From Bacteroidales bacterium (lineage in GTDB: Bacteria; Bacteroidota; Bacteroidia; Bacteroidales; UBA932): DNA of 64,000 nucleotides. Numbering within the stretch: the stretch's first letter is position 1; every line of letters starts with the position of its first letter. The notes beneath the pieces were generated by a model. That model had not been told where the DNA came from. It made no database searches and was given only the letters and a program-made list of their open reading frames with translations. The stretch is taken from positions 62,001 through 126,000 of the forward strand of contig JAAYJQ010000012.1 in assembly GCA_012522855.1 (NCBI GenBank). The letters run 5' to 3'. This document shows, piece after piece, positions 8,091 through 47,344 of the stretch. The position numbers were made by a program, and so were the translations under genes.

Positions 8091-8098
8091 TAAATTTG
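8091..8098 (+). promoter_or_regulatory. -7 promoter box abutting the aldo/keto reductase start
   Basis: TAAATTTG is an exact match to the Bacteroidota TAnnTTTG box. Only three bases separate it from the ATG at 8102, so the transcript would be leaderless or nearly so. No clear -33 TTTG is seen. Confidence 0.6.
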
Positions 8099-8101
8099 AT
8101 T

Positions 8102-9103
8102 ATGATCAATCCTGTCTTTTCTCCGAATCCGGACCGGTATACGTCCGGCATCCGCTATCGCAGATGCGGTCGCAGCGGCATTCATCTTCCGGAAGTTTCT
8201 CTGGGCCTCTGGCACAACTTCGGAGATATCAATCCCTTCGCCAATTCTCTTGAGATGGCGCACTACGCCTTTGACCACGGCATCGTACATTTCGATCTGG
8301 CAAACAACTACGGTCCCTCCTACGGATCCGCCGAAGAAACCTTCGGCCAAATCATGCAGAAGTCTTTCCGGCCTTTCCGGGACGAACTGTTCATTTCTTC
8401 CAAGGCGGGTTTCGACATGTGGCCCGGCCCCTACGGCAACTGGAGTTCCCGGAAATACCTGATCAGCAGTCTGGATCAGAGTCTCAAACGAATGAAGCTG
8501 GACTATGTGGATTTGTTCTACTCCCATCGGTACGATCCGGACACGCCACTGGAAGAAACGCTCCAGGCCCTCGTGGACATCGTCCGGTCCGGAAAGGCGT
8601 TGTACGTCGGATTGTCGCGGTACCCGTTCGCGCGGGCGGAGGAGGCGTACCGCTACCTGGCGGAGCGGGATGTGCCTTGCCTGATCTATCAGGGACGCTA
8701 CAACCTGCTGGACAGAGCCCATGAAACGGATGGAGAACTCCGACAAGCCAAGGAGCATGGTGTGGGATTCATTTCCTTCTCTCCGCTTGCTCAGGGGCTG
8801 TTGACCGACCGGTATTTCAACGGGATACCCGCCGGGTCCCGGATTGCCCGGAAGACTTCGCTGAGCGAAGCCGCCTTGACCCCCGAATTGCTCGGGAAAC
8901 TCCGCAAACTGAACGAGATCGCAGCCCGCCGGGGACAAACGCTGGCGGCAATGGCGCTTTCCTGGGTGCTGAAGGATGACTTGGTGACCAGCGTGCTCGT
9001 GGGAACCAGCTCAGTCGCGCAACTGCAGGACAATCTCAAGGCCATCGAGCACACTGATTTCTCCCCGGAAGAACTCTGCGCGATAGAGGACATCCTGCGG
9101 TAG
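8102..9103 (+). CDS. Aldo/keto reductase, YghZ/GpR-like
   Basis: An NADPH-dependent aldo/keto reductase of 333 residues, closest in pattern to the YghZ (L-glyceraldehyde-3-phosphate reductase) and Kv-beta group: RYRRCGRSGIHLPEVSLGLW at the N-terminus, the catalytic tetrad as FDLANNYG (Asp, Tyr), SSKAGF (Lys) and YSHRYDP (His), and a C-terminal cofactor loop VLVGTSSVAQLQDN. The ATG at 8102 is preferred to an in-frame TTG six bases earlier. It is divergent from the epimerase and has its own promoter box. The physiological carbonyl substrate is unknown. Confidence 0.9.
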   Translation: MINPVFSPNPDRYTSGIRYRRCGRSGIHLPEVSLGLWHNFGDINPFANSLEMAHYAFDHGIVHFDLANNYGPSYGSAEETFGQIMQKSFRPFRDELFISSKAGFDMWPGPYGNWSSRKYLISSLDQSLKRMKLDYVDLFYSHRYDPDTPLEETLQALVDIVRSGKALYVGLSRYPFARAEEAYRYLAERDVPCLIYQGRYNLLDRAHETDGELRQAKEHGVGFISFSPLAQGLLTDRYFNGIPAGSRIARKTSLSEAALTPELLGKLRKLNEIAARRGQTLAAMALSWVLKDDLVTSVLVGTSSVAQLQDNLKAIEHTDFSPEELCAIEDILR

Positions 9104-9131
9104 CGAATCCGGAACATTGCTTCTTTTTAAC

Positions 9132-9139
9132 TATATTTG
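9132..9139 (+). promoter_or_regulatory. -7 promoter box before metallophosphoesterase gene
   Basis: TATATTTG, an exact TAnnTTTG match, 28 bases before the ATG at 9168. It probably drives the two-gene phosphoesterase/beta-galactosidase unit. No convincing -33 element. Confidence 0.55.
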
Positions 9140-9167
9140 GCAATACTTCAAGCAAGCATCGCCTACT

Positions 9168-11045
9168 ATGCGTCTCGGAAAAGTCATTTTGGGAATCGTC
9201 GCGCTAGCCCTGAGCGGAGTCGTAACATCCGCGCAGGGTACCCGGGTGAGGTTCGCCTTTCTCACGGACCTGCATTACGCGACAGACAGTCCCGCCGTCT
9301 CGGATCTGCGGACCTGCATCCGGGATCTCAATACCCGGAACGATCTGGATTTTGTGCTGGTGGGGGGCGACCTCACCGAATTCGGTTCCGATGAGGAGAT
9401 CTTCGGAGTCAAGAAAATGCTGGATTCTTTGCGGTGCAAGTATTATGTCGTGGCCGGAAACCATGATTCCAAGTGGTCGGAAAGCGGTTGCAATACCTTC
9501 CGGGATGTCTTCGGGTACGAACGCTTCGCGTTTAACTGCAAGGGGTGGCGGTTCATAGGGTGCAACAGCGGGCCCGACATGCGGATGGCTCCCGCCCTGC
9601 TCCCGCAAGAAAGCCTGCAGTGGCTCAAGGAGCTCCCTCCCGGCGAGAAGACGGTCTTTGTCAACCACTATCCGCTGGACTCTTCGATGCTCAACTACTT
9701 CGATGTGACCCGTGAACTGAAACGGATCGGAACCCGCCTCGTCATCGGGGGGCACTGGCATTCGGACGTTGCGCTGAATTATGACGGACTGCCCGGCGTG
9801 CTCTGCCGTTCGACCCTGTCCGCCGGCAACCGTCCCGGCTATACGGTTTTTACCTTGGACGGGGACCGCGTTTCCGCCTCCGAATGCAGGATTTACGGAT
9901 CCACTACGGTGCGTTTCGAGCCGTGGTACTGCCGTACGCTTACTGAGGTGCATGACACGGTGACGTACGATGCGGACGGCCTGCCCGCCGACTATCCTTG
10001 GATGCGATTCGATGTAAATGAGAAACAGACCCCCTTGAAACAGGTCTGGAAGCGGACCGACGACAGCAACATCGCCGCAGGTTTCGCGTGGGACAGGGGA
10101 TGGGCTTGGTACCCTACGACTTCGGGCATGATCCGCTGCCTGTACTCGGAAGATGGCCGCTGTCTGTGGTCGAAACAATTTCCCGGCAAGATCTTCTCCA
10201 CCCCTGCTGTTGCGAAAAACACCCTCGTTTTCGGCTGCGCGGACGGGAACGTCTATGCGCTGAGGGCCAAGTCCGGCCGGTTACTATGGAAGTATTCCGC
10301 TCGCAAATCCGTGTTGGGAAGTCCGGTTCTGTACGGAGGAAAGGTGTACATCGGGGCTTCCGACGGGGCTTTTCGGGCGCTGGATCTGAAGTCCGGGCGG
10401 CCCGTCTGGACCTTTTCCGATGTCGAAGGCTTTGTCGAAAGCCGTCCGTATGTGGATGCGGAGCAGGTCGTATTCGGCAGCTGGGGCGGGCGGCTCTATT
10501 CCCTGGATCCGGACAGGGGCTCTCTCCAGTGGAGTTGGAAGAGCCCGCGAGAATCCCGGATGTACTCTCCTGCGGCAACCTGGCCGGTCAAAGCAGCCGG
10601 CAAGATCTTTATCGCGGTTCCGGACCGACGGCTGTATGTGCTGGATGCCCGGACGGGAAAGGAAATCAAGCATTTCGACAACGTGGCGCGGGAGGCGGTG
10701 GGTCTCTCGGCGGACGGAAAGACCGTCTACTGCAAAGCCATGTCCGGAACGCTGACGGCCTTGGATGCCGAAACACTGGCCATTCGTTGGCAGGTGGACG
10801 GGCGGACCGGCTATGATATTTCTCCCACTGCGATCGTTGAAGCCGGCGGGATGGTGCTGCTTCCGACGGACAAGGGCAACCTGCTCCTCTTCGATACACG
10901 GGGAACCTATCTGGGCGCCCGGAAGATTTCCACGGCTTTGGTGAATCCGCTGACCGTATGGACCGATTCGCGCGGGCGTAGACTGCATCTTCTGGTCTCA
11001 ACGATGGACGGAACCATTGCCTATTTACAAGAACAAAACCAATGA
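9168..11045 (+). CDS. Exported metallophosphoesterase fused to PQQ-like beta-propeller
   Basis: A 625-residue two-domain protein. The start at 9168 gives a signal peptide (MRLGKVILGIVALALSGVV, cut near TSAQG). Residues ~25-250 are a calcineurin-like metallophosphoesterase with all metal motifs: FLTDLHYATD, LVGGDLTEFG, VVAGNHDSKW, VNHYPLD and GGHWHSD. Residues ~320-625 are repeated PQQ-type propeller blades (WYPTTSGMIRCLYSEDG, VYALRAKSGRLLWKYS, LYSLDPDRGSLQWSW and others), probably a binding platform rather than a dehydrogenase. It is followed after seven bases by the GH2 gene, so the two are likely co-expressed. The natural phosphoester substrate is unknown. Confidence 0.88.
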   Translation: MRLGKVILGIVALALSGVVTSAQGTRVRFAFLTDLHYATDSPAVSDLRTCIRDLNTRNDLDFVLVGGDLTEFGSDEEIFGVKKMLDSLRCKYYVVAGNHDSKWSESGCNTFRDVFGYERFAFNCKGWRFIGCNSGPDMRMAPALLPQESLQWLKELPPGEKTVFVNHYPLDSSMLNYFDVTRELKRIGTRLVIGGHWHSDVALNYDGLPGVLCRSTLSAGNRPGYTVFTLDGDRVSASECRIYGSTTVRFEPWYCRTLTEVHDTVTYDADGLPADYPWMRFDVNEKQTPLKQVWKRTDDSNIAAGFAWDRGWAWYPTTSGMIRCLYSEDGRCLWSKQFPGKIFSTPAVAKNTLVFGCADGNVYALRAKSGRLLWKYSARKSVLGSPVLYGGKVYIGASDGAFRALDLKSGRPVWTFSDVEGFVESRPYVDAEQVVFGSWGGRLYSLDPDRGSLQWSWKSPRESRMYSPAATWPVKAAGKIFIAVPDRRLYVLDARTGKEIKHFDNVAREAVGLSADGKTVYCKAMSGTLTALDAETLAIRWQVDGRTGYDISPTAIVEAGGMVLLPTDKGNLLLFDTRGTYLGARKISTALVNPLTVWTDSRGRRLHLLVSTMDGTIAYLQEQNQ

Positions 11046-11052
11046 CAACGAT

Positions 11053-14000
11053 ATGAAAAGAATCTTTTTGCTGATCGCTGCTCTTCCGATAGCGGTTTCC
11101 GCCCTTTCCGAGGAGAAGATGGAACCTTGGCAGGATCCAAACATCTTTGAAGAAAACCGGATGCCGATGTCGGCTACCTTCGTGACTGACCAGCAGCAGA
11201 CCCTTTCTCTGGACGGGATCTGGAAATTCAACTTCAATGAGACCATTGAAGGCCGGACGAAAGGCTTCGAGGCTCCTTCCTATGATGATTCCGATTGGGA
11301 TACCATTCCGGTTCCCGGGATGTGGGAACTGAACGGGTTCGGGGATCCCCTCTATTTGAACATCGGCTATCCTTGGCGCGGCCACTACGCGAACAATCCC
11401 CCCTATCCGGCTTTGGAGCATAACTACGTGGGACAATACCGGAGAACCTTTCAGATCGACGAGTCCTGGTTGGGACGGCAGATTTGCTTGAATATCGGCT
11501 CGGCGACCTCCAACGTGCGGGTTTGGGTGAACGGACGGATGGTGGGTTACAGCGAGGACAGCAAGCTGGAAGCCCGGTTCGACTTGACCCGGTATGTCAA
11601 AGCGGGCGAAAACGTGATCGCCCTCGAGATTTTCCGGTGGTGCGACGGAACCTATTTGGAAGACCAGGATTTCTGGCGCTTCTCCGGCATCGCGCGCGGG
11701 GTGTATCTCTACACCCGGGAACAGGAACGGATTGAAGATGTGCATATCGTTGCCGACATGAACGGCCTCCTGACGGTTGATACCCGCACCACGAAAGGCA
11801 TCCAGTCTGTTTCATATGAGGTGCTGGACCCTGCCGGCAAGTCGCTGGGAACCTTTACCGGATCCGGCAAGCAATTCCAGGACGTCTCGCTCTGGAGCGC
11901 CGAGACACCCGCGCTCTACACCTTGAAAGTGACGGCGCAAGATCGTCGGGGCGGCGTGGTTGAAAGCGCTTCCATCCGTTTCGGTTTCCGTACTGTGGAG
12001 ATCAAGAACCGGCAGTTGCTGGTGAACGGTCAGCCGGTGCTCATCAAGGGCGTGAATCGGCACGAAATGAATCCTAAAAAGGGGTATGTGGTTTCCGAAG
12101 CGGATATGCTGAAGGACATCCGCATATTCAAGGAACTGAACGTCAATGCCGTGCGAACGAGCCACTATCCCAATGACCCGCGTTGGTACGACCTCTGTGA
12201 CGAATACGGGATCTACGTGGTGGACGAAGCCAACGTCGAGTCGCACGGAATGGGCTACGGTTCGCGCACGCTGGCGAACCGCGACGACTTCGCCGCCGCC
12301 CATCTGGTTCGTAACCAGCGGGTGGTTATGCGGGATTTCAACCACCCTTCCGTCATCGTCTGGAGCCTCGGCAACGAGGGTGGGAACGGCAAGAATTTCT
12401 ATGCCTGCTATGATTGGATCAGGGCGTACGACAAGACCCGTCCTGTGATGTACGAGCGGGCGGAGGACGATCGGAATACCGACCTCAAATGCCCGATGTA
12501 CATGAGCCCGGATGACTGCGAGAAGTATGCTATCGAGGGCCCGAAGCCGTTGATTCAGTGTGAATATGCCCACGCAATGGGCAATTCGATGGGCAACTTC
12601 AAGGAATATTGGGACCTTATCCGGAAGTATCCTTCCTTCCAGGGAGGCTTTATCTGGGATTTCGTGGATCAGGCGATCCGCTGGCCTTCCCGGGAGGGCG
12701 GTACCGACCACATTTTCGCCTTCGGCGGGGATTTCAATCAATATGATCCCTCGGACGGCTCGTTCAACTCCAACGGCGTGATCGCGGCGGACCGCAGCCT
12801 GCATCCGCATGCGTACGAGGTGCGCTACCAGTACCGGAACATCCTGACTTCCGGTGAACCGGCCTCGGACGGAAAGATCCGGGTTTACAACGAATTTTTC
12901 TTCAAAGATCTCAGCAACTGCCGGATGCAGTGGTCGCTGGTCGCGGATGGTATCGTGGTTGAAACCGGGATCGTTGAAGATCTGGACGTCGCTCCGCAGC
13001 AGACACGGGAAATCCGCCTTCCGCTGCCGGATGCCCGGAGGTTGGACATTATGGGCGAGCGAGGAGACATCTATTTGAATGTCAGCTACCTGCTGAAGCG
13101 GCAGGAAGGACTGCTTGCTGCGGGAACAGAGGTGGCCTATGACCAACTCCTCCTCCGCGCATGCGACCGGCCTGTCTTCATGGCCGGATCCGCCGCGGTT
13201 CCGGAGAATCCGGTCCGGTACGAAGTGACGGAGTACGAACATCTGTTCTCCGGCCTGCTGGGACGGGACGGTGGATCGGTCGGTATCTGGGAGGCCTCTT
13301 TCGACCGGGGGACGGGAGCGCTCTCCGGCTATAGGCTTGACGGCTCGGAACTGATTGCGGAACCGCTGATGCCTTGTTTCAGCCGGGCGCCGGTGGAGAA
13401 TGACATGGGGGCCCGGATACACGAGGCGCTGGGTGTGTGGCGGTATCCCGAATTCGAGGTCAAGTCCATGACTGTGCAACAGCAGGACGACGGCTATTCC
13501 GTCCGGGTGGTCTATCTGCCCGTGGCGAACGGGGCTGCGACTGTGGAAATGTCCTACCGGATCCATCCCGACGGCTCCATCGCCGGGATCGAAGCAATGA
13601 AGGATGCGGACGGCAAACTCTCCGAGGCCCCTGATTTGTTCCGCTTCGGAATGACATTCACCATGCCCGGAACCTATTCGACCGTCGATTTCTATGGCAA
13701 AGGCCCTTGGGAGAACTATTGCGACCGGAACAGCGGGGCCCTTGTCGGACGCTACACCCAATCCGTGAACGAGCAGTATCACTACGGCTATGTGCGTACG
13801 CAGGAGTCCGGAACCAAGACCGGATTACGGTATTTCCGGCTCCTTGATTCCGATGGAAGCGGACTGGAGATCACTTCGGATGAGAAATTTTCAGCTTCCG
13901 CCCTTCCGTTCTCCATCGCGATGTTGGATTGCGTGGAACATGGGACGCCGCAGCGGGCAAATCCCACGAACGTTCAGGCCGGTGAAGCCCGCCATTCCCT

Positions 14001-14181
14001 CAATTTCAAGGCGATTGCCCATGAAAACGACAGGGCGAACGGCAAGACCTACGTGAACTTCGACTTGAAGCAGATGGGGGTCGGCGGCATTAACACCTGG
14101 GGTGCCTGGCCGCTGGAGCCGTACCGCATCCATGCCGCCGAGCGCGAATTCCGCTTCCTCCTCCGCCCGATTGTAAACTGA
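11053..14181 (+). CDS. Exported GH2 beta-galactosidase
   Basis: A 1,042-residue LacZ-type glycoside hydrolase of family GH2. The ATG at 11053 gives a signal peptide (MKRIFLLIAALPIAVSALS), so it acts in the envelope. Domain order is the sugar-binding jelly roll (DGIWKFNFNETIEGRTKGF, FSGIARGVYLY), Ig-like domain, TIM barrel, and beta-sandwich plus C-terminal Bgal_small_N domain (VDFYGKGPWENYCDRNSGA). The acid/base Glu is in SLGNEGGNGKNF and the nucleophile Glu in IQCEYAHAMGNSMGN. It lies seven bases after the phosphoesterase gene. No SusC/D pair is adjacent, so it is not an obvious PUL enzyme; galactosidase specificity rests on family resemblance. Confidence 0.93.
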   Translation: MKRIFLLIAALPIAVSALSEEKMEPWQDPNIFEENRMPMSATFVTDQQQTLSLDGIWKFNFNETIEGRTKGFEAPSYDDSDWDTIPVPGMWELNGFGDPLYLNIGYPWRGHYANNPPYPALEHNYVGQYRRTFQIDESWLGRQICLNIGSATSNVRVWVNGRMVGYSEDSKLEARFDLTRYVKAGENVIALEIFRWCDGTYLEDQDFWRFSGIARGVYLYTREQERIEDVHIVADMNGLLTVDTRTTKGIQSVSYEVLDPAGKSLGTFTGSGKQFQDVSLWSAETPALYTLKVTAQDRRGGVVESASIRFGFRTVEIKNRQLLVNGQPVLIKGVNRHEMNPKKGYVVSEADMLKDIRIFKELNVNAVRTSHYPNDPRWYDLCDEYGIYVVDEANVESHGMGYGSRTLANRDDFAAAHLVRNQRVVMRDFNHPSVIVWSLGNEGGNGKNFYACYDWIRAYDKTRPVMYERAEDDRNTDLKCPMYMSPDDCEKYAIEGPKPLIQCEYAHAMGNSMGNFKEYWDLIRKYPSFQGGFIWDFVDQAIRWPSREGGTDHIFAFGGDFNQYDPSDGSFNSNGVIAADRSLHPHAYEVRYQYRNILTSGEPASDGKIRVYNEFFFKDLSNCRMQWSLVADGIVVETGIVEDLDVAPQQTREIRLPLPDARRLDIMGERGDIYLNVSYLLKRQEGLLAAGTEVAYDQLLLRACDRPVFMAGSAAVPENPVRYEVTEYEHLFSGLLGRDGGSVGIWEASFDRGTGALSGYRLDGSELIAEPLMPCFSRAPVENDMGARIHEALGVWRYPEFEVKSMTVQQQDDGYSVRVVYLPVANGAATVEMSYRIHPDGSIAGIEAMKDADGKLSEAPDLFRFGMTFTMPGTYSTVDFYGKGPWENYCDRNSGALVGRYTQSVNEQYHYGYVRTQESGTKTGLRYFRLLDSDGSGLEITSDEKFSASALPFSIAMLDCVEHGTPQRANPTNVQAGEARHSLNFKAIAHENDRANGKTYVNFDLKQMGVGGINTWGAWPLEPYRIHAAEREFRFLLRPIVN

Positions 14182-14268
14182 TCCGGCGGGCGTAAGTCGC
14201 TGCAGGGTGTACAAAGCGGCGGCGGTACCAACCTGTTATGGCTTGGCAGCAGAAGGCTTCCATGGACA

Positions 14269-14400
14269 CTTCTGTAAGTAGTTGTCAATAAGGTTATTGA
14301 AAAGTACGTCGTGGATGTCTGTACCAAAATCAGGGGAGACATCCACGAGCGTCCTTGTAAGTGTCTGAAAATAAAGTTGTTGAAAAACCACCTGTGGATG
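14269..14400. repeat. Two degenerate direct repeats, 83-base period
   Basis: Bases 14269-14317 and 14352-14400 align without gaps and agree at 31 of 49 positions by hand count. Conserved blocks are TGTAAGT, AATAA, TTGAAAA and GTGGATG. A weaker third start (CTTGTAATTGACC) follows at 14405. The element family is not recognised. Confidence 0.5.
14310..14347. repeat. 11-bp perfect inverted repeat
   Basis: CGTGGATGTCT (14310-14320) is the exact reverse complement of AGACATCCACG (14337-14347), with 16 bases between. There is no T-run on either side, so a recombination or protein-binding site is as likely as a terminator. It overlaps the end of the first direct repeat. Confidence 0.55.
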
Positions 14401-14604
14401 CCTTCCTTGTAATTGACCGAGAACTGGTTGGAGGACATTAGATGGTTGATTAATTAGTTCCCTTTTTGACGAATCACTGTTAAGATATACGCCTGCACGG
14501 AGGTTCGTGCATGGAAAACCGAATTTTTGGGAGGATTTTCAGAATTATTCACAACAAAGATTCGGGGAAGAACCGCTATCATTGCGAATAAACGCGCTAA
14601 AAGT

Positions 14605-14802
14605 ATGAATAGAAGAGAAGTTTTGAAGGTCATGGGTGCGTCCTTCGCCGCGACCGTGATGGCCGGGGTCAAGAGACTTGTGCGACCGTGCATGAGGGAT
14701 GGCCCCGAAGGGGCGGACCGGTCCGGTGGCTCCCTGCGCTTTTCCGCTGCACGGCTGAAACAAAGCATCCGGACCTTGCGGGGTCCGGATGCATATTCAT
14801 GA
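14605..14802 (+). pseudogene. Truncated start of a Tat-exported protein
   Basis: From ATG 14605 the frame reads MNRREVLKVMGASFAATVMAG, a convincing twin-arginine signal of the kind found on Bacteroidota oxidoreductases. After ~25 residues it turns into low-complexity sequence (KRLVRPCMRDGPEGADRSGG) without a recognisable fold, and it stops inside the glyA terminator. The likeliest reading is the 5' remnant of a deleted Tat-substrate gene whose body was lost by rearrangement. A genuine small exported peptide of 65 residues is less likely. Confidence 0.4.
14765..14792 (-). terminator. Rho-independent terminator of glyA
   Basis: An 11-bp perfect stem (14765-14775 with 14782-14792) with a six-base loop, about 24 bases past the glyA stop. 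On the minus strand it is followed by TTTGTTTC. Confidence 0.75.
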
Positions 14803-14815
14803 ATATGTCCAGTTG

Positions 14816-16144
14816 CTAGTACTTGTTGAGGGGACGGCCGGCGGTCATGTTGTGTACCTTGCGGCGCACTTCCTCCAGTACGGCCTGATAGGCATCCTTG
14901 CCCTCTTCCGTGACACCGTTGACGTAGTCGGCGTGGGCGGCGACCGCGGTGAGAACCATGTCGATCAGTTCGACCATGTCCTTCATGTCCTTCTCCACGA
15001 AGCCGCGGGATGTAACGGCCGGGGTGCCGACTCGGAAACCTGAGGTTTTGAAGGGGGAACGGTTGTCAAACGGAACCATGTTCTTGTTGATCGTGATGGC
15101 CGCGTTCTCAAGTTCCCGCTCCGCCATTCTGCCCGTCACGTCGGGGAATTTGGTCCGCAGGTCGATCAGCATCAGGTGGTTGTCGGTGCCGCCGGAAACG
15201 ACCTTGTAGCCGCGGGCAATGAATTCATCGGCCATGACTTGCGCGTTGGCCATCACCTGTTTCTGGTATTCCACAAATTCCGGCTGGGCCGCCTCGTAGA
15301 ACGCCACTGCTTTCGCTGCGATTACATGCTCGAGCGGTCCGCCCTGCACACCGGGGAACACGCTGGAATTGAGGATCGCGCTCATCTTCTTGATTTTGCC
15401 CTTCGGCGTCTTGAGACCCCAGGGGTTGTCGAAATCCTTGCCCATCAGGATCACGCCCCCGCGTGGGCCGCGGAGCGTCTTGTGGGTAGTGGAGGTAACG
15501 ATGTGGGCATATTCGACAGGATTCTTCAGTAGTTTGGCCGCGATCAAACCGGCTGTATGGGCCATGTCGATCCAAAGAATGGCGCCCACCCGGTCCGCGA
15601 TCGCGCGCATCCGTTCGTAGTCCCATTCGCGGGAGTAGGCGGAAGCGCCTCCGATGATGAGTTTCGGTTTGCATTCCAGCGCCGTTTTCTCCATCTGGTC
15701 ATAGTCAACCATTTCAGTTTCCGGATCGAGACCGTAGGAAACGGCGTTATAAAGGATTCCGGAAGCATTCACAGGGGAACCGTGGGTCAGGTGTCCCCCC
15801 TGGGAAAGATCAAGTCCCATGAAGGTGTCGCCCGGTTTCAAACAAGCCATCTGGACAGCCAGATTGGCTTGGGCGCCGGAGTGCGGCTGGACGTTGGCAT
15901 ATTCAGCATCGTAGAGCTCGCAGAGGCGATCGATGGCCAGCTGCTCGATCTGATCGATGACTTCACAGCCTCCGTAGTAACGCTTTCCCGGGTAACCCTC
16001 CGCATACTTGTTGGTGCAGACGGTGCCCATGGCTTCCATCACCTGGTCTGTGACATAATTTTCCGAAGCGATCAACTCCAGTCCGGAAGACTGGCGTTCT
16101 TTTTCTTTCTTGATCAGATCAAAAATCTGAATATCCTGTTTCAT
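14816..16144 (-). CDS. glyA: Serine hydroxymethyltransferase
   Basis: PLP enzyme that interconverts serine and glycine while charging tetrahydrofolate with a one-carbon unit; cytosolic. The 442-residue protein shows [12 protein letters not shown] near residue 20, the [16 protein letters not shown] loop, [13 protein letters not shown], and the PLP-lysine motif [14 protein letters not shown] near residue 240. It has its own promoter and terminator, so it is a monocistronic housekeeping gene, divergent from the RNA methyltransferase gene. Start context and length agree with the family. Confidence 0.98.
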
Positions 16145-40159: not shown

Positions 40160-40190
40160 TTTGGCAAAAGGAAAATAAGTACTATATTTG
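40160..40190 (+). promoter_or_regulatory. Promoter of marR-hdr operon
   Basis: A complete Bacteroidota promoter: TTTG (40160-40163), a 19-base spacer, then TATATTTG (40183-40190). It starts directly after the rsgA stop codon. Confidence 0.75.
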
Positions 40191-40198
40191 TCTCTAAA

Positions 40199-40214
40199 AG
40201 TAAATCATTTTACT
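40199..40214 (+). promoter_or_regulatory. MarR operator candidate
   Basis: AGTAAA-TCAT-TTTACT is a perfect 6-bp inverted repeat lying between the -7 box and the marR start, a usual position for MarR autoregulation. Confidence 0.5.
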
Positions 40215-40221
40215 ATATAAT

Positions 40222-40698
40222 ATGATACTGAGCAAGCAGCTCGTTCTCTTTCTGAACATCGTCCATACCAGTATGAAACAGTGTATGGTGAATGACTTCA
40301 AACAATCCGGGTTCAATCTTACCCCTGAGCAGTTTCTCGTCATGGACACCTTGTGGGACGAAGGGGTGCTCACCCAGCAGCAGATCGCGGACATCACCCT
40401 GCGGGACAAGAATTCGATCGTGAAGCTGATCGACGGACTGGAAAGCCGCAAACTCGTGACCCGGGTCAGCAATCCCGACGATCGACGGCAGAACCTCATT
40501 AAAGTGACGGACTATTCCCGTTCGATCAAGGACAAGGTGACGAAGGTGGCCATGGACTCTGTACAGAAAATCATCCGAGGCCTCGCCCAACCAGACTTGG
40601 AAGCATTCGTGCGAATGCTTTCCAAGATGGAATTGAACATCGATCCGAAGGTGGATCTGATGGCGATGGCCACCAAATATCCTACCAATAAACAGTGA
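40222..40698 (+). CDS. MarR-family transcriptional regulator
   Basis: A 158-residue winged-helix regulator. The recognition region is LTQQQIADITLRDKNSIVKL followed by the wing VTRVSNPDDRRQNLIKVT with the conserved Asp-Arg-Arg; helical dimerisation segments flank it. It is the first gene of the operon that encodes the Hdr-like complex (stop three bases before the next start), so it probably senses a ligand or redox state and controls that operon. Confidence 0.92.
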   Translation: MILSKQLVLFLNIVHTSMKQCMVNDFKQSGFNLTPEQFLVMDTLWDEGVLTQQQIADITLRDKNSIVKLIDGLESRKLVTRVSNPDDRRQNLIKVTDYSRSIKDKVTKVAMDSVQKIIRGLAQPDLEAFVRMLSKMELNIDPKVDLMAMATKYPTNKQ

Positions 40699-40701
40699 TT
40701 T

Positions 40702-41397
40702 ATGAGTAAATTGTATGACCTGCTGATGCAGGACTACCGAATCCGGGAAGGACTGAATGCTTGTATCAACTGTGGCACGTGCACGGCTATCTGTCCCGCC
40801 GCGGAATTTTACCGCTACGATCCGCGCCAGATCGTGAACATCGTCCAGAGTCAGGACGAAGCGGCAATCGAAGAATTACTTAAAAGCGAAACGATCTGGT
40901 ACTGCGGCGAGTGCATGAGCTGCGTGACCCGCTGTCCCCGCAAGAACGCGCCTGGATTGATCATTATGGCGCTTCGCAGCCTGTCTATTGATTTAGGCTA
41001 TTTCATCGAATCCGAAAAAGGCCGGCAGCAGTATGTTTTGTGCAAAGATCTCTGCGGCAACATCCTGGATTACGGCTACTGCGTCTATCCTCGGAATTTC
41101 GATTCGGCCGGGCATCCGGAAGCGGGTCCTGTGTGGGCATGGGAGGAAAAGCATCTGGACGAAGTTTTCGAGCGACTTGGAGGGAATCTGGACGGGGATG
41201 GACCCGGGGCGTGCCGGCGCATTCCCCAGGAAGACCTGGACCAGATCCAGCGGATCTTTGACGAGACCGGGGGGACTGCCCGGTTGGAGACGGTTCGGAA
41301 GGCAGCGGAAAAGAAAGCGGCGGAACTGGGACTCTCCGTCGAGGAATTCGCCGAAAAGGTAAATACCACTTGCAGTCCTTTCCATTTTAACCATTAG
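40702..41397 (+). CDS. HdrC-like iron-sulfur protein (two [4Fe-4S])
   Basis: A 231-residue soluble protein resembling heterodisulfide reductase subunit C. It has two ferredoxin-type motifs, CINCGTCTAICP (residues ~21-32) and CGECMSCVTRCP (~71-82), each binding a [4Fe-4S] cluster, and then a long helical, charged C-terminal half not found in the shortest HdrC proteins. It would pass electrons between the HdrA-like flavoprotein and HdrB-like subunits. It is four bases from the hdrB-like gene. No methanogen-type cofactor genes are nearby, so the classical CoM-CoB substrate does not apply. Confidence 0.88.
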   Translation: MSKLYDLLMQDYRIREGLNACINCGTCTAICPAAEFYRYDPRQIVNIVQSQDEAAIEELLKSETIWYCGECMSCVTRCPRKNAPGLIIMALRSLSIDLGYFIESEKGRQQYVLCKDLCGNILDYGYCVYPRNFDSAGHPEAGPVWAWEEKHLDEVFERLGGNLDGDGPGACRRIPQEDLDQIQRIFDETGGTARLETVRKAAEKKAAELGLSVEEFAEKVNTTCSPFHFNH

Positions 41398-41401
41398 GAT
41401 C

Positions 41402-42469
41402 ATGATCTACGAAGGAAAACAACGGATCTGGAGCGACTATCAGAAAGAAATCCCCGACGATCACTACTTTTATGTACGCAGTTGCATCCGGCAGGCGTTC
41501 TTCACCGGCTCCGAGGTGGCATTTCTGGACATCACCCGCAACCGGCTCGGGAAAGACATCTTCGAGTCGGAGCATCATACGACCTGCGGCGGTATCGCTT
41601 ACCATTCCGACACCATCCCCCATGAAACCGTGATGACGATCGTCGCGCGCCAGTTCGCCCTGATGCACAAGTACGGGTATGAGAATTACGTTTGCTCCTG
41701 CATTACATCTTTCGGGGTCTATGCCGAAACCCTCGAGACTTGGCGGGAATTCCCCGAGCTTCAGGCCAAAATCGCCGAAATTCTGATGAAGACCTGCCGG
41801 CTGGAGTTCGCGAAACCGAAATACATCGTCCATGCCAGCGACTTGATCTTCAAATTTCGCTATCAGATCGCCGCGCGGGCCGTCCACAAATTGGTGAACG
41901 TCCGGACGGGGAAACCCCTGAAAGTCGTGGAGCACATCGGCTGCCACTATTCCAAAATGTTTCCGTCCAAGGGCGTGGGAGGCGCCGAATATCCCTACGT
42001 CCTCGCGGGCATGGTGGAGGCTTGGGGCGGGGAAGTGGTGGATTACCCCGAGCGGCGGCACTGCTGCGGCTTTGGTTTCCGGCAGTATTTCGTTCAGGCC
42101 AATCGGGGCTATTCCCTGTCCAATACCCACAAGAAATTCGAGAGCATGGAGCCGTACCACCCGGACTGTATTGTCACCAACTGCCCGGGTTGTCCGTATT
42201 TCTTGGATCGGTGGCAATATGTCATCGCGGAACAGACCGGAAAGACTTACGGAGGCGACGGGCGCGGAATTCCCGTGTTGACCTATGAGGAAATGGCGGG
42301 ACTGGTGATGGGCTACGACCCGTGGGATCTCGGGCTGCAGACACACCAGACTCCGGTTGAATCCCTACTGGACAAGATGGGAATCGTTTATGACGAAAAA
42401 TCAAAGTATCTCGGCAAGGGAGGCAAGGATCTCGGTCAGCCTGCGCATCCCTCCTGTCTGAAAATTTAG
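41402..42469 (+). CDS. HdrB-like CCG-domain protein with degenerate first cluster site
   Basis: A 355-residue protein with two CCG (DUF224-type) cysteine regions, the module that holds noncubane [4Fe-4S] clusters in HdrB. The second site is intact: Cys181, Cys221-Cys222 and Cys261-x2-Cys264 (HIGCHYSKM, RRHCCGFGF, NCPGCPYF). The first is altered: Cys28, then Thr61-Cys62 in place of Cys-Cys, and Cys98-Ser-Cys100 in place of CxxC. At most one canonical noncubane cluster is therefore expected. It sits between the HdrC- and HdrA-like genes. The catalytic substrate (a disulfide, persulfide or other acceptor) is unknown. Confidence 0.85.
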   Translation: MIYEGKQRIWSDYQKEIPDDHYFYVRSCIRQAFFTGSEVAFLDITRNRLGKDIFESEHHTTCGGIAYHSDTIPHETVMTIVARQFALMHKYGYENYVCSCITSFGVYAETLETWREFPELQAKIAEILMKTCRLEFAKPKYIVHASDLIFKFRYQIAARAVHKLVNVRTGKPLKVVEHIGCHYSKMFPSKGVGGAEYPYVLAGMVEAWGGEVVDYPERRHCCGFGFRQYFVQANRGYSLSNTHKKFESMEPYHPDCIVTNCPGCPYFLDRWQYVIAEQTGKTYGGDGRGIPVLTYEEMAGLVMGYDPWDLGLQTHQTPVESLLDKMGIVYDEKSKYLGKGGKDLGQPAHPSCLKI

Positions 42470-42476
42470 TTTAGAT

Positions 42477-43532
42477 ATGAAAAATAACGTCCTCATCATC
42501 GGCGGCGGGCCGGCCGGCATGGAAGCTTCCGCGCAGTTGCAGCGCCTCGGCTACAATGTCATCCTGATTGAGCGGGAGAGTACCCTCGGCGGCCATCTCA
42601 ACCGCTGGGACCGGCTTTTCCCGGAAGGCGTTCCCGCTTCGGAGCCACTGGAAGCGCTGATGAAGAATATGAACGGTGTCAAGTGTTTCACGGACACGGA
42701 GATTCAGTCGATCAACCGGCTCGACAAATCTTTCAACGTCATCCTGTCCAACGGCATTACGGTCCTGGCGGACGCGGTTTTGATCGCCTGCGGCTTCGAC
42801 CTCTTCGATGCTTCCCGGAAGGAGGAATATGGCTATGGTATCTACGATCATGTGATCACGAATGCGGATCTGGAGGCCTGGTTCCAATCGAAGTCCGACG
42901 ACCGGATCGATAATCCGAAGAGAGTTGGCTTCGTCCATTGCGTCGGTTCCCGGGATGAGAAAGCAGGGTGCAGGGGCTGCTCGAAGGTGTGTTGCGTCAC
43001 CGCCGTGAAAGAAGCCTGCGAGATCAAGGAGGCTTTCCCGGATGCCCAGGTCTATTGTTTCTACATGGATCTGCGGATGTTCGGCCGTCATTATGAAGAC
43101 CTTTACCTGAAAGCCCAAAAGGACTACGGGGTGCGCTTCATCAGGGGACGGGTTTCGGAGGTCTCCGAGAACCAGGACAGAAGTCTGCTGGTGAAGGCGG
43201 AGGACACACTGTCCAGCAAACCGGTTCAGATCACGCTTGACCTGTTGGTATTGATGGCCGGTATGCGACACTCCGAGGCAGGACGAAGGATTGCCGACAT
43301 GCTGAATCTGGCTCCCGAAGACGATGGCTTTTTCGCGGTCCGGAACAATCTCACTGCCAACCAGCAGGCACGGATGCCCGGACTGTTCCTTGCCGGTGCC
43401 GCCACAGGTCCGAAGACATTGCCGGAGTCTCTTGCGGATGCGCGGAGCGCTGCCGCAGCCATCGACCACTACTTGACCGACATATTTCCCCAGACCCGGA
43501 AACTCAAGAAATTGGTAAAGAAAAATGGTTGA
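42477..43532 (+). CDS. HdrA-like FAD/iron-sulfur oxidoreductase, short form
   Basis: A 351-residue flavoprotein. The FAD-binding Rossmann motif is at the N-terminus (VLIIGGGPAGMEASAQL) and the second dinucleotide region at GLFLAGAATGPKTLPESLAD. The HdrA-specific inserted cluster site is present: HCVGSRDEKAGCRGCSKVCC, near residue 155. Methanogen HdrA is about 650 residues with extra ferredoxin domains; this protein lacks them and is closer in size to the HdrA-like subunits of Qmo complexes. It overlaps the next gene by eight bases. It likely receives electrons from a soluble donor or splits them between the two HdrC-like arms; bifurcation is inference. Confidence 0.87.
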   Translation: MKNNVLIIGGGPAGMEASAQLQRLGYNVILIERESTLGGHLNRWDRLFPEGVPASEPLEALMKNMNGVKCFTDTEIQSINRLDKSFNVILSNGITVLADAVLIACGFDLFDASRKEEYGYGIYDHVITNADLEAWFQSKSDDRIDNPKRVGFVHCVGSRDEKAGCRGCSKVCCVTAVKEACEIKEAFPDAQVYCFYMDLRMFGRHYEDLYLKAQKDYGVRFIRGRVSEVSENQDRSLLVKAEDTLSSKPVQITLDLLVLMAGMRHSEAGRRIADMLNLAPEDDGFFAVRNNLTANQQARMPGLFLAGAATGPKTLPESLADARSAAAAIDHYLTDIFPQTRKLKKLVKKNG

Positions 43533-43854
43533 TTTTGGATTTTCCTTGAGCCCGAGTTCCCGGATTGATTTGGATGAATTCGACCGCAAAACTTTCGATC
43601 GGCTGCTTGCCTTGGAACCCGATGCGAAGAAATGCATGGAATGCGGAAGTTGCTCTGCGGTCTGCACTGCCTCCCGGTACACGGAGACCAGCGTGCGGAG
43701 GGCTTTGCATGCGCTCCGGAATGGATGCGGTGCCCAGGCAGTGGAGGAACTCAAAGGCTGCCAGTTCTGCGGAAAATGCACGATGGTCTGTCCGCGGGGC
43801 ATCAATACGCGGCATCTGATTCTGTCGATTCTTAAAATTTACGGCGCGTTATGA
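43525..43854 (+). CDS. Second, small HdrC-like ferredoxin subunit
   Basis: A 109-residue iron-sulfur protein with CMECGSCSAVCTASR (residues ~37-51) and CQFCGKCTMVCPRG (~79-92), two [4Fe-4S] sites. The first motif ends in Cys-Thr rather than Cys-Pro. It overlaps the HdrA-like gene by eight bases at its start and the membrane HdrD-like gene by four bases (ATGA) at its end, so it is tightly coupled to both and is probably the bridge between flavin and membrane subunits. Confidence 0.88.
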   Translation: MVDFGFSLSPSSRIDLDEFDRKTFDRLLALEPDAKKCMECGSCSAVCTASRYTETSVRRALHALRNGCGAQAVEELKGCQFCGKCTMVCPRGINTRHLILSILKIYGAL

Positions 43855-45884
43855 CGAAACTTCACGTAGCGGTCTTCCTGCAGACGGCGGGCGCGAGCGA
43901 GGTCATCGACCGCGTTCCGGCGAGTTTCTCTCCATTTGTGCTCCCGTTTGTGATCGGCATCAGCTTCTTCCTTTGCTGGATTACGGTAGGGCTCATCCGG
44001 GTGCTGTATGCAATCCCTGCTTCCGACCGCAGGAAATTGGCGATCTCGCTGGTCAATCCGAAGATCGCTTGGAAAAACATCCGGGATCTTTTCTGTGACT
44101 GCCTGTTTCATGTCAAGATCTGGCAACGGAAGCCCTTGCTGGGTTACATGCATTCCTCCATCGCCTTCGGCTGGTTCATGCTGATCGTGTTGGGTCACAT
44201 TGAGGTGGCGCTCTTCGTTCCTTGGCATCTGAGCTTTTCAAAAGGATCGTTGTATTATCCGATCTTCTACCGGTATTTCATCTGGACCGATCCCGCCCAT
44301 GTGACCCTGCGCGGTTCGTTCTTCTTTTTCTTGATGGACTTCTTCCTGCTGTATGTGCTGACCGGGATCGCGCTGGCGGTGTTTAAACGGTTCCGTTCCA
44401 TCGTCTTGGGTATGCGGCACACTACCAAGCCGTCCCTCGCTGACCGGCTTGCGCTCTACAGTCTCTGGCTCATTTTTCCGCTGCGGCTGCTGGCGGAAAG
44501 CTTCACGGCCGATCTCAGCGGGGGAAGTTTCCTGACCGTCCCTGTCAACCATCTCTGGCATCTCCTGTTCGGGGAGAAGCTGTATTTTATGCCGGTTTGG
44601 TGGGCCTATTCGATTTGCCTGGGAGTGTTTTTCGCAGCCATGCCGTTCAGCCGTTACATGCACATTCTCACTGAAGTGTTGTGGATTCTGTTTCGGAATG
44701 CCGGGCTGCAGCCGAGCCATCCGCGCAAGGGAGTGGCGGAGGCGGAGATCTACGCCTGTTCGAGTTGCGGCCTGTGTCTGGATGCCTGTCCGATGAATGT
44801 CCAAAAGAAGAATCTGAAGTATTCCTCAGTCTATTTCATCCGGCGGCTCCGGCGGCACAACGAGCGGAAGATCAACCTGATCGCGGACAAGTGTCTGATG
44901 TGCGACAAGTGCCATGTGCTCTGTCCGGTCGGGGTGGATGCGCCGGCGTTGCGCCGCGCGCAGCGCAAGACGGTGAAAAATGCGCTGACCTATGACTATT
45001 CGTATCTTTCCGCGCTTTCCGCTCCCGGAAGTTCGGTTTCTTCCGCTGAAAATGCTCCGGAAACCGAAACTTCCGGTCGCGGGTGTTCGGTTCCTTCTGC
45101 TCTCGGAAGTTCGGTTTCTTTCGCTGAAAATGCTCCGGAAACCGAGATTTTCGGTCGCGGTGGTGCGGTTTCTTCCGATGTTCCGCGGGTGCTGTACTTC
45201 GCGGGGTGCATGACCCATCTGACGCCGCGGATCCTCCGGTCCGTCGAAGAACTTTTCCGGAAGGCGGGGGTTGATTGGCAGTTCATGGATCGGGAAGGCG
45301 GGATCTGTTGCGGGAGACCGCTGATGCTCGCCGGACGTACGGATGCCGCAGCGGAGTTGGTCGCTGCCAATAAACGGATGATTGAGGCCTCGGGCTGCGA
45401 TACCCTGGTACTTTCTTGTCCGATCTGTTACAAAATATTCAAAGAAGATTATGCCCTCTCGGGCATTCGCGTTCTGCATCATACGCAGTTCATCAAGGAA
45501 CTGGTCGATGCGGGGCGGCTGGTTTTGTCGAAAGGAACCGATTCCGTGGTCTACCACGATCCCTGTGAGTTGGGACGCGGTTGCGGTGTCTACGCGGAGC
45601 CGCGGGCCGTGCTCTCCCAGATCGCTGACCTGAAGAAACCCTCCCAAGACGGGGACGAAAGTGTTTGCTGCGGGGGAAGTCTGGGCAGTTTGACGTTGAA
45701 CGCAAACGATCGCGAGTGGATCACGTCCGGGTCGGTGAAAATTCTCCTGAAAGCATCCGACGGCAGTCCGCTTCATCCCGACGCGCTCGTAACAGCCTGC
45801 CCTCTTTGTCTCAAGACCTTCAATGAAGCTGCTCCGGTTCCGGTAAAGGACTTCGCGGAAATCGTTCTCGAACATTCGGCGTAA
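43851..45884 (+). CDS. Fused NarI-like cytochrome b / HdrD-like membrane subunit
   Basis: A 677-residue fusion. Residues ~20-285 hold about five to six TM segments with histidines placed for b-heme (GYMHSSIAFGWFMLIVLGHIE, VNHLWHLLFGE), like NarI/DsrM. Residues ~300-370 carry two [4Fe-4S] motifs (CSSCGLCLDACP, CLMCDKCHVLCP). A low-complexity linker (~393-444) is built from a duplicated 26-residue unit. Residues ~450-670 are an HdrD/DsrK-type double CCG domain with both sites intact (GGICCGRPL...LSCPICYK; SVCCGGSLGS...TACPLCLK). DsrM and DsrK are normally separate proteins. It should link menaquinone to the soluble Hdr-like subunits. Direction of electron flow is unknown. Confidence 0.88.
   Translation: MTKLHVAVFLQTAGASEVIDRVPASFSPFVLPFVIGISFFLCWITVGLIRVLYAIPASDRRKLAISLVNPKIAWKNIRDLFCDCLFHVKIWQRKPLLGYMHSSIAFGWFMLIVLGHIEVALFVPWHLSFSKGSLYYPIFYRYFIWTDPAHVTLRGSFFFFLMDFFLLYVLTGIALAVFKRFRSIVLGMRHTTKPSLADRLALYSLWLIFPLRLLAESFTADLSGGSFLTVPVNHLWHLLFGEKLYFMPVWWAYSICLGVFFAAMPFSRYMHILTEVLWILFRNAGLQPSHPRKGVAEAEIYACSSCGLCLDACPMNVQKKNLKYSSVYFIRRLRRHNERKINLIADKCLMCDKCHVLCPVGVDAPALRRAQRKTVKNALTYDYSYLSALSAPGSSVSSAENAPETETSGRGCSVPSALGSSVSFAENAPETEIFGRGGAVSSDVPRVLYFAGCMTHLTPRILRSVEELFRKAGVDWQFMDREGGICCGRPLMLAGRTDAAAELVAANKRMIEASGCDTLVLSCPICYKIFKEDYALSGIRVLHHTQFIKELVDAGRLVLSKGTDSVVYHDPCELGRGCGVYAEPRAVLSQIADLKKPSQDGDESVCCGGSLGSLTLNANDREWITSGSVKILLKASDGSPLHPDALVTACPLCLKTFNEAAPVPVKDFAEIVLEHSA
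45027..45182 (+). repeat. 78-bp in-frame tandem duplication in hdrD-like gene
   Basis: Two adjacent 78-base units (45027-45104 and 45105-45182) encode related 26-residue segments (GSSVSSAENAPETETSGRG and GSSVSFAENAPETEIFGRG). They form the linker between the ferredoxin and CCG domains and are likely to vary in copy number among strains. Confidence 0.85.
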
Positions 45885-45913: not shown

Positions 45914-47344
45914 ATGAATCAAATGAACAGAGCGATTCTGAGGCTGGCGGTTCCCAGCATCCTGGCGAACATCACAATCCCGCTGGTAGGTATTGTGGGC
46001 ATTGCCGTTGCGGGGCATTTGGGCCCCGACGCCATGGGCATAACGGGAAGCTCGTCCGCTGCCCTGATCGGCGGGGTCTCCATCGGCTCCATGCTGTTCG
46101 ATCTGCTGTACTGGAATTTCGGCTTCCTGCGAGTCGGGACGGGCGGGCTGACTGCTCAGGCCTATGGGCGTCGGGACTGGCAGGACAGCGCAGCCATCCT
46201 CGGTAAAGGCGTCGGCATGGCCCTGCTCATTTCGCTGGGGGTTCTGGCCATTCAATGGCCGTTCGCGAAACTGATGCTGCTTTTCGTGGATGCTTCCCCC
46301 CAAGTGCTGGAACTGGCGCAGACGTATTTCTTCATCCGCATCTGGGCGGCGCCCGCTACTTTGACTCTGATGTCGCTCAAAGGCTGGTTCATCGGCATGC
46401 AGGACACGGTAAGTTCGATGTTCACCGACCTCATTGTGAACGGGGTGAATATTCTTGCGAGCATCCTCCTGTCAGTCGGCATACCCGGGACCGCCTTTGA
46501 GGGATTCGGTTTCATCGGAATCCCCATCGGGACGGTGCTGGCTCAATATTCCGGTCTCTTCTCCGCGCTGGGGATCGTCCGGGTGAAGTACCGTGCGGTT
46601 ACGAAGGGAGCGCTGCGTCCGAAATCGGTGAAGGCTTCCTTCCGGGACGGGAATATGCGGGAATTTTCCAAGGTCAACGGTGACCTGTTTGTCCGTTCGG
46701 TGGCTTTGATTGTCGTGTATATCAGCTTTACGATTCTTTCGGCTCGCTACGGTGATCTGTTGCTGGCATCGGCTTCTATCATGATGCAGTTGCTGATGGT
46801 CTTCTCCTATTTTACGGACGGGTTCGCATTTGCAGGGGAGGCGCTTACCGGACAGTTCGTCGGAGCGCGGAAACCGCTGCGAATGCAGCAGGCGGTAAAA
46901 TGGACCTTCGTTTGGAGTATGGGGGTCGGAATATTCTTCGTCGGTTTCTATGCGATGGCCGGCGTGCCGCTGCTTCGGCTCATGACTTCCGATGCATCCG
47001 TGGTGCAGGTTTCGACTTTATTCCTGCCCTGGCTGGTCGTCATGCCGTTGATCGGTTGTCCGGCCTTTACCTGGGACGGTATTTATACCGGAGCGACAGC
47101 AACGAAAGCCCTCCGGAATGCCTCGGTGGGATCCGTCGGAGCCTTCTACCTCGTCTGGCTCCTGGGGACCGGACTGCTACGGTTGTCCGGAATCCCGCGG
47201 GAACCGGCCGCCGGAGAGCTTGTCGGCGCCTACGGCCGGACCGCCGTGCATCTTCTTTTCGGCGCTTATTTCGCCCACCTCATCTTTCGTTTGGTCTACC
47301 AGTCCCTCCTGTACCGAAAGGCTATCGTATCCCGTATTTCTTGA
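45914..47344 (+). CDS. MATE-family efflux transporter, DinF-like
   Basis: A 476-residue, 12-TM multidrug/toxin extrusion protein. N-terminal features MNRAILRLAVPSILANITIP and GHLGPDAMGITGSSSA, and the mid-protein GWFIGMQDTVSSMFTDLIVN, agree with the DinF branch. It likely exchanges Na+ or H+ for an organic solute. Its 3' end overlaps the convergent SGNH gene by 23 bases. It starts 30 bases after the Hdr-like operon but has its own promoter box. Confidence 0.92.
   Translation: MNQMNRAILRLAVPSILANITIPLVGIVGIAVAGHLGPDAMGITGSSSAALIGGVSIGSMLFDLLYWNFGFLRVGTGGLTAQAYGRRDWQDSAAILGKGVGMALLISLGVLAIQWPFAKLMLLFVDASPQVLELAQTYFFIRIWAAPATLTLMSLKGWFIGMQDTVSSMFTDLIVNGVNILASILLSVGIPGTAFEGFGFIGIPIGTVLAQYSGLFSALGIVRVKYRAVTKGALRPKSVKASFRDGNMREFSKVNGDLFVRSVALIVVYISFTILSARYGDLLLASASIMMQLLMVFSYFTDGFAFAGEALTGQFVGARKPLRMQQAVKWTFVWSMGVGIFFVGFYAMAGVPLLRLMTSDASVVQVSTLFLPWLVVMPLIGCPAFTWDGIYTGATATKALRNASVGSVGAFYLVWLLGTGLLRLSGIPREPAAGELVGAYGRTAVHLLFGAYFAHLIFRLVYQSLLYRKAIVSRIS

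Follow-up and report, generated by a model that had tools for sequence, protein, structure and literature searches.

What is a heterodisulfide reductase (Hdr)-like complex doing in a member of the Bacteroidales? The question is raised by an operon in a 64,000-nucleotide stretch of DNA (the window) from a rumen-type Bacteroidales bacterium (assembly GCA_012522855.1, contig JAAYJQ010000012.1, positions 62,001 to 126,000). Six tightly spaced open reading frames (ORFs) on the forward strand follow a promoter there, in the order marR-hdrC1-hdrB-hdrA-hdrC2 and a gene for a NarI-like cytochrome b fused to HdrD. On balance we favour the view that the operon encodes a sister of the sulfur-oxidising Hdr-like (sHdr) complexes, one that would oxidise persulfide to sulfite, pass the electrons to menaquinone and feed the sulfite into sulfonolipid synthesis. 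Sulfonolipid genes form one run with the genes of the operon in several relatives, and the operon may therefore make the sulfite that those lipids need without recourse to oxygen or sulfate.

The operon and its subunits

The features of the operon are:

40160..40190, + strand: putative Bacteroidetes-type promoter, TTTG-N19-TATATTTG, 31 bases ahead of the marR start codon
40222..40698, + strand: marR, MarR-family regulator, 158 aa (Pfam MarR, 45 bits), a lineage-specific part of the operon
40702..41397, + strand: hdrC1, subunit with two ferredoxin-type [4Fe-4S] sites, 231 aa (NCBIfam HdrC, 87 bits)
41402..42469, + strand: hdrB (B1), 355 aa (HdrB, 139 bits)
42477..43532, + strand: hdrA, single-domain FAD/[4Fe-4S] subunit of the sHdrA type, 351 aa (HdrA, 263 bits)
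43525..43854, + strand: hdrC2, second 4Fe-4S dicluster subunit, 109 aa (HdrC-like, 36 bits)
43851..45884, + strand: NarI-like cytochrome b/HdrD fusion, 677 aa (membrane helices, 4Fe-4S dicluster, two CCG domains; EtfD/EMO fold)

Neighbouring genes are separated by 3 (marR/hdrC1), 4 (hdrC1/hdrB) and 7 bases (hdrB/hdrA) or overlap by 8 (hdrA/hdrC2) and 4 bases (hdrC2/fusion), and the ORFs together with the family scans confirm the layout described in an earlier note on this DNA, which had read one promoter and six genes with gaps or overlaps of a few bases. TTTG-N19-TATATTTG, which we take to be the Bacteroidetes-type promoter consensus, is matched exactly at four sites of the window where 0.22 would be expected, a number that none of 100 shuffles reached; the match listed above is the only one within or just ahead of the operon, in keeping with a single putative promoter. 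The Hdr proteins score far under the curated cut-offs for the methanogen Hdr equivalogs and are thus relatives of those enzymes rather than the enzymes themselves.

Over its whole length HdrA can be aligned with the sHdrA of Hyphomicrobium (6tjr; 204 bits), but with methanogen HdrA mainly over the later part; residues C155, C168, C172 and C173 are invariant in 77 sequences. In HdrB the C-terminal CCG motif is complete (five of five cysteines) and the N-terminal one is reduced to C28, C62 and C100 (three of five), all of these retained cysteines being invariant in 85 sequences. The missing N-terminal positions are occupied by T/S (61) and S (103) in 29 of 29 aligned sequences, namely 28 from Bacteroidales and the B1 protein of the cyanobacterium Picosynechococcus sp. 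PCC 7003, and the same replacements occur in sHdrB1-type proteins linked to electron transfer flavoprotein (ETF) genes in two other genomes of the phylum (G065 and G147, loci L289 and L290). The reduced motif would mark B1-type HdrB, a signature drawn from the present set of sequences, which includes no type-I sHdrB1. The conservation sets, after length filters and the exclusion of sequences containing X, hold 85 HdrB, 73 fusion and 77 HdrA proteins, from clusters that held 88, 75 and 80, the window included.

The earlier note had looked to a phylogeny of each subunit; small trees of 14 hand-picked rows each place HdrA and HdrB beside sHdr. The HdrB tree unites the Bacteroidales proteins with the sHdrB1-type proteins and PCC 7003 B1, against methanogen HdrB, Ilyobacter HdrB and PCC 7003 B2 (support 100/100, on long branches flagged as risky). 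The HdrA tree groups them with sHdrA against the long HdrA proteins (99/97), sHdrA (three of the 14 rows; 98/96) and Bacteroidales plus PCC 7003 (93/91) forming sister clades. These trees suggest that the HdrA/HdrB lineage is the sister of the sulfur-oxidising sHdr family and includes the cyanobacterial plasmid cluster.

The fusion contains membrane helices, two [4Fe-4S] sites and two complete CCG motifs. H87, H101 and H271 of its membrane part are invariant (38 of 38 sequences), and its eight ferredoxin and ten CCG cysteines are kept in 73 of 73. EtfD, or EMO, is the ETF:menaquinone oxidoreductase, and EtfD of M. smegmatis (9ojn) is the best structure match of the fusion model (pLDDT 82; E 1.1e-18, TM 0.65, rmsd 8.5, 16% identity). 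The fusion is probably the membrane subunit that reacts with quinone. Structure prediction, carried out on single subunits, thus gives the fusion an EtfD fold, and the HdrB model, of middling quality (pLDDT 72), matches methanogen HdrB with TM scores of up to 0.82 by target. EtfA and/or EtfB occur in the stretches of four of the 180 loci fetched and are not found in the window, the search covering these stretches rather than whole genomes. The host genome (G000), of 2.64 Mb and 99.3% completeness, carries the window on its contig C29 and has menA, just over its cut-off (104 against 102 bits). The earlier reading of the operon as a quinone-linked complex of the thiol/disulfide type, assembled from Hdr parts in a Bacteroidales, is supported.

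Sulfonolipid genes and the supply of sulfite

The pathway to sulfonolipids, as given in the available part of PMC11211663, comprises cysteate synthase, CFAT and 3-ketocapnine reductase. We found a cysteate synthase gene directly 3' of the operon in 22 of 67 assessable named loci, in 4 of 15 loci from relatives and in one of 52 from an even sample of the order (L188); these counts leave out loci that lack any of the five hdr genes, have a fusion match shorter than 600 residues or offer too little flank. The named loci are the best 80 of 518 candidate stretches, and at least four of the relatives' loci lie on the same contigs. The matched stretches of operon and cysteate synthase are 17-111 bases apart in the named loci, and the one downstream protein that was scanned scores 485 bits to TIGR03844 (cut-off 325). 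In L047, from the same genus, VOC-CFAT-SDR-hdrC1-B-A-C2-fusion-cysteate synthase forms one run on one strand. In four further families (L244, L247, L259, L262, L263) CFAT and/or a second cysteate-synthase-like gene stands beside the operon on the same strand, accompanied in L244, L262 and L263 by SDR and VOC genes. By a rough Poisson estimate, the probability that immediate adjacency would arise in 4 of 49 families is 2.3e-7 or less.

The association extends to whole genomes. In the order sample a CFAT-like gene is present in 85 of 92 Hdr-positive genomes and in 123 of 203 Hdr-negative ones (Fisher 3.6e-9, like the other Fisher tests given here without correction for kinship), Hdr-positive meaning that HdrB is matched. 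G000 itself has cysteate synthase and a CFAT-like gene. A second, threonine-synthase-like enzyme, CYSB25, reaches 109 bits to TIGR03844 and stands beside CFAT, and the genome-wide counts of cysteate synthase cover the TIGR03844 type and leave the CYSB25 type aside. In a test on the relatives (61 genomes), TIGR03844 and Hdr were not associated beyond the genus, the family being over its cut-off in one of seven Hdr-positive genomes, a null result that makes sense in view of the CYSB25-type enzyme seen beside CFAT.

The sulfite for cysteate synthase has to come from somewhere. G000 (99% complete) gave no match for CysD, for the 3'-phosphoadenosine 5'-phosphosulfate (PAPS) reductase domain PF01507 or for AprA, so that no known reductase of adenosine 5'-phosphosulfate (APS) or PAPS was found that could supply it. 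Among CFAT-positive genomes Hdr is present in 33 of 58 without CysD and in 52 of 150 with it (p 0.0045); at 95% completeness or more the figures are 26 of 36 and 44 of 102 (p 0.0035), this split by CysD being one of several examined.

Two other kinds of gene accompany these runs. A protein of about 350 residues from the glyoxalase/VOC superfamily, to which no NCBIfam name attaches, travels with CFAT and cysteate synthase at five loci, with SDR in four of them, and is possibly an unassigned step of sulfonolipid synthesis:

L047, 13139-14212: VOC protein
L244, 13102-14166: VOC protein
L262, 11869-12939: VOC protein
L263, 3376-4443: VOC protein
L270, 9871-10917: VOC protein

A gene for a SulP-family anion transporter follows the cysteate synthase behind the operon in L094-L097 and L127 (the L096 protein was scanned), and L188 has a SulP-like gene by resemblance at 13476-15251.

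Distribution and neighbours in relatives

The survey of genomes that keep the operon, which the earlier note had proposed, found HdrB in 22 of 61 genomes comprising the host and its relatives (21 strongly) and in 92 of 295 in the order sample (E 1e-30 or better; 54-79% identity besides the window). A sample of 395 genomes from the phylum, few of them Bacteroidales, yielded at the same E value the window's genome and two distant HdrB proteins (32-33%), which belong to the two ETF-linked sHdr references. Among the best 80 of the 518 stretches, the closest named relatives are Bacteroidales metagenome-assembled genomes, many titled from rumen or other gut sites. Gene order is usually kept: all five hdr genes lie on one strand and in the same order at 69 of the 80 named loci, at 15 of the 20 from relatives and at 60 of the 80 from the order sample, and contig ends, reduced forms and divergent copies explain at least part of the remainder. 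Two reduced forms recur, one with hdrC1-hdrB as the only hdr genes (for example L187, L189, L192, L209, L233 and L239) and one with hdrB-hdrA only (L052, L230, L245), and some of these genomes carry a full copy elsewhere.

Control by MarR, as first suggested, holds for the window in that marR is part of its operon, yet it is a local feature: of the loci with room upstream, marR is present at 37 of the 65 named ones, at 4 of the 14 from relatives and at one of the 57 from the order sample. A gene pair drawn from the same two clusters takes its place in, for example, L210, L249, L254 and L256, encoding in L256 a histidine kinase and a LuxR-type response regulator. Likewise, the statement that no sulfur genes lie nearby stands for the window as far as it was examined and fails for the relatives, several of whose loci carry them.

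Other neighbours deserve mention in their own right. A MATE-family efflux gene lies 3' of the operon on the same strand (window 45914-47344; 178 bits, cut-off 147), and several close loci have relatives of it near the operon. Most of the hdrC1-hdrB pairs without adjoining HdrA or fusion (L187, L189, L192, L203, L209, L233, L239) are accompanied by Mrp/MrpORP-type genes, and the stretches of L192, L203 and L239 also hold a methionine-gamma-lyase-like gene. L049 (genome G059) combines a full hdr operon with a further HdrA/HdrC-like block and a DsrE-like gene (653-1003), the sole DsrE match among the 180 stretches. In L193, PstS-, PstC-, PstA- and PstB-like genes lie directly 3' of the hdr operon (6902-10614; PstC and PstA over cut-off), and members of the Pst clusters are near the operon in L206 and L222, from two other families, an arrangement that would fit a replacement of phospholipids by sulfonolipids when phosphate is limiting.

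Proposed function, alternatives and known Hdr-type systems

The earlier note had left the substrate unspecified. It can now be narrowed toward sulfane sulfur, which would probably be turned into sulfite, because of the position beside sHdr, the gene runs with sulfonolipid genes and the methionine-gamma-lyase-like and SQR-like neighbours found elsewhere. The cofactors, persulfide substrate, sulfite product, direction of electron flow and menaquinone acceptor that we infer make up the following scheme. A complex C1-B1-A-C2-[NarI/HdrD] would face the cytoplasm, anchored in the membrane. The substrate would be a persulfide, R-S-SH, borne by a small thiol or a carrier protein. It would bind at noncubane Fe-S centres in both HdrB and the HdrD part, where its sulfane sulfur would be oxidised by four electrons to sulfite; for such a reaction the available part of PMC6067878 gives R-S-S- + 3 H2O -> R-S- + HSO3- + 5 H+ and four electrons. 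The electrons would travel through HdrA (FAD, 4Fe-4S) and the HdrC ferredoxins to the fusion, and by its heme or hemes to menaquinone, and the sulfite would enter cysteate synthase as the first step of sulfonolipid (capnine-type) synthesis. More tentatively, in a proposal with almost as good a chance of being right as wrong, the operon would represent a branch of Hdr-like enzymes that provides oxygen- and sulfate-independent sulfite in strictly anaerobic gut and rumen Bacteroidales, dispensing with a lipoate carrier, using menaquinone as acceptor and channelling the sulfite through a co-transcribed cysteate synthase into immunomodulatory sulfonolipids.

Several observations weigh against a sulfite-forming complex tied to these lipids. 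TIGR03844 alone is barely associated with Hdr in the order sample (33 of 92 Hdr-positive against 49 of 203 Hdr-negative genomes, p 0.049), and the association within the genus is weak (cysteate synthase in 13 of 14 against 12 of 23, p 0.013) and not significant in its 13 genomes of at least 90% completeness. In G000 the cysteate synthase lies on a different contig from the operon. CFAT is named by its place beside cysteate synthase and by a BioF/SPT-type pyridoxal phosphate (PLP) enzyme score that is under every curated cut-off shown, and the second cysteate synthase by context and similarity. At least six of the 92 Hdr-positive genomes showed a reduced form only, and L262 and L263 (family f135) have a complete hdr set in a different order. 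Of the CFAT-positive genomes, 25 have neither Hdr nor CysD, and another 52 have the two together. Twelve genomes of the genus have cysteate synthase without the operon, six of them at least 90% complete, and of these six only G003 has a match, a partial one, to the PAPS-reductase domain. Genomes with cysteate synthase and with neither operon nor this domain imply another source of sulfite, and some relatives must have such sources. As for membership of sHdr proper, the Bacteroidales HdrA does not fall inside the sHdrA clade of the 14-row tree, and LbpA, which is called essential for sHdr, had no match in the 180 fetched Hdr stretches or the window, the control L290 being found.

Much the same chemistry could serve a general detoxification of sulfide or polysulfide and redox disposal, with sulfane sulfur going to sulfite, menaquinone as the sink and sulfonolipid use secondary and lineage-specific. 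We regard this as unlikely, though not negligible. In the available part of PMC11129491, Black Sea strains that include Lentimicrobiales, Ancylomarina and Labilibaculum are described as having a complete heterodisulfide reductase system, with a suggested role in sulfide tolerance, but no sulfide oxidation was seen there in culture. The full operon of L049 is followed by a methionine-gamma-lyase-like gene of the kind noted above in stretches with hdrC1-hdrB pairs, and the PCC 7003 cluster ends in an SQR-III-like protein (best match SQR III, 83 bits against a cut-off of 525); on the other side, genomes with Hdr tend to have the CFAT-like gene as well, and several lineages have the operon in one run with genes for cysteate synthase, CFAT, SDR and VOC. 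An alternative use of the membrane subunit, as part of a quinone-linked disulfide/thiol enzyme whose small-molecule substrate is not sulfane sulfur or as an EMO-like point of electron entry for another flavoprotein, would reduce the sulfonolipid link to shared regulation. EtfD being the closest solved structure of the fusion, EtfA and/or EtfB in four loci, and the phosphate-uptake-type genes that come after the operon in L193 and lie near it in L206 and L222, which hint at co-regulated lipid remodelling, all point that way; we nevertheless consider it improbable, given that 176 of the 180 stretches contain no EtfA/EtfB match, that HdrB keeps the noncubane-type ligands typical of thiol chemistry and that its nearest relatives outside the order are of the sHdr type.

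A Qmo-like role, in which menaquinol electrons would pass through the complex to an APS/PAPS reductase and sulfite would be drawn from sulfate, seems to us very improbable. Hdr/Qmo-type parts are present, and five named loci have a SulP-family gene 3' of cysteate synthase, as L188 does by resemblance, but AprA is over its cut-off in two of the 61 genomes, neither with the operon, and in none of the 21 with strong HdrB, and hdrC1 reaches 47 bits against a QmoC cut-off of 300. For G000 we reject APS reduction of this kind on the lack of any match to CysD, PF01507 or AprA, in a search that did not take in Sat-type ATP sulfurylase. The fusion reaches 49 bits against the DsrK cut-off of 400, and a grouping within Qmo or Dsr, raised in the earlier note, did not occur in these comparisons, which omitted QmoA, QmoB and DsrM.

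A sulfite-forming complex, if that is what the operon encodes, would offer a concrete enzyme for a gap in sulfonolipid synthesis, extend sHdr-type chemistry to fermenting anaerobes and give an anaerobe a source of sulfite free of oxygen and sulfate. In the available text of PMC11211663 gut-bacterial sulfonolipids (for example those of Alistipes) are discussed as modulators of inflammation; the word sulfite occurs zero times in the main text, which does not take up the question of where an anaerobe that lacks sulfate assimilation would obtain it. The literature searched, which most subscription papers lie outside, contains no paper that pairs heterodisulfide reductase with sulfonolipid, none that combines sulfonolipid, sulfite and cysteate, and none on EMO. 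Capnine, sulfite and cysteate occur together in PMC11129491, which separately notes capnine lipids in Ancylomarina and Labilibaculum and in its available parts draws no link among the three or to heterodisulfide reductase. In this literature the connection between the Hdr-like branch and the lipids appears not to have been made.

How, then, does the complex compare with known systems? Unlike methanogen HdrABC, it has a short HdrA and an HdrB with three of five N-terminal cysteines; a methanogen-type Hdr with electron bifurcation is rejected on HdrA architecture and the trees, and the confurcation proposed in the earlier note is not supported, HdrA being of the short single-domain kind represented by 6tjr rather than the long HdrA of bifurcating complexes. 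The sHdr complex of Hyphomicrobium denitrificans is alike in its C1-B1-A start, single-domain HdrA and B1-type HdrB, with the HdrA proteins in sister clades. Its order, hdrC1B1A-hyp-hdrC2B2, is said in the available part of PMC6067878 to be 'inevitably' associated with LbpA; it is colinear with the Bacteroidales C1-B-A-C2-HdrD, which lacks Hyp and a stand-alone B2 and has the NarI/HdrD fusion in last place. LbpA-dependent sHdr proper is rejected on the absence of LbpA from the fetched stretches and the window and of GCV_H-family matches from the Hdr-positive genomes G040 and G053 (98-99% complete); the single GCV_H protein of G000 is encoded at a distance from the operon.

The ETF-linked sHdr Group III is described from Actinobacteria and Firmicutes (Cao et al. 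2018). Within the same phylum as the window, G065 has C1-B1-A-hyp-HdrCB-EtfB-EtfA-EMO with LbpA- and DsrE-type genes upstream on the same strand (by Pfam and similarity), and G147 has C1-B1-A-HdrCB-EtfB-EtfA-EMO-DsrE-LbpA, with no gene in the hyp place. These clusters share with the Bacteroidales operon C1-B1-A, the reduced B1 motif and an EMO/EtfD-type membrane protein, but EtfB-EtfA and LbpA- and DsrE-type genes stand among or beside their hdr genes, and of the two CCG motifs that the Bacteroidales fusion retains, their EMO has lost the first. The fusion resembles EtfD/EMO itself in its NarI-like helices, ferredoxin part, CCG part and fold; it differs from 9ojn in sequence and geometry, as the low identity and high rmsd given above indicate, and its neighbours are hdrC1BAC2, mostly without ETF.

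The Picosynechococcus sp. PCC 7003 plasmid NZ_CP016476.1 (L285, 8242-13982) carries hdrC1-B1-A-C2-B2 followed by the SQR-III-like flavoprotein gene, with identities to the window of 48% for C1 (over 206 residues), 40% for B1 and 45% for A. It has the same order up to C2 and no LbpA among the features listed (19 kb), and differs in having a separate B2 and the flavoprotein where the Bacteroidales have the fusion; it is perhaps a quinone-linked sulfane-sulfur module in a phototroph. In the plasmid search for HdrB, Acidithiobacillus showed a lone HdrB-like gene and no sHdr cluster (one of three records examined). What emerges is an sHdr-like complex that would bring a subunit of its own for the reaction with quinone and do without LbpA; to judge by its genes, it looks like a compact version of these systems, in which the fusion stands where others have B2 or ETF and EMO.

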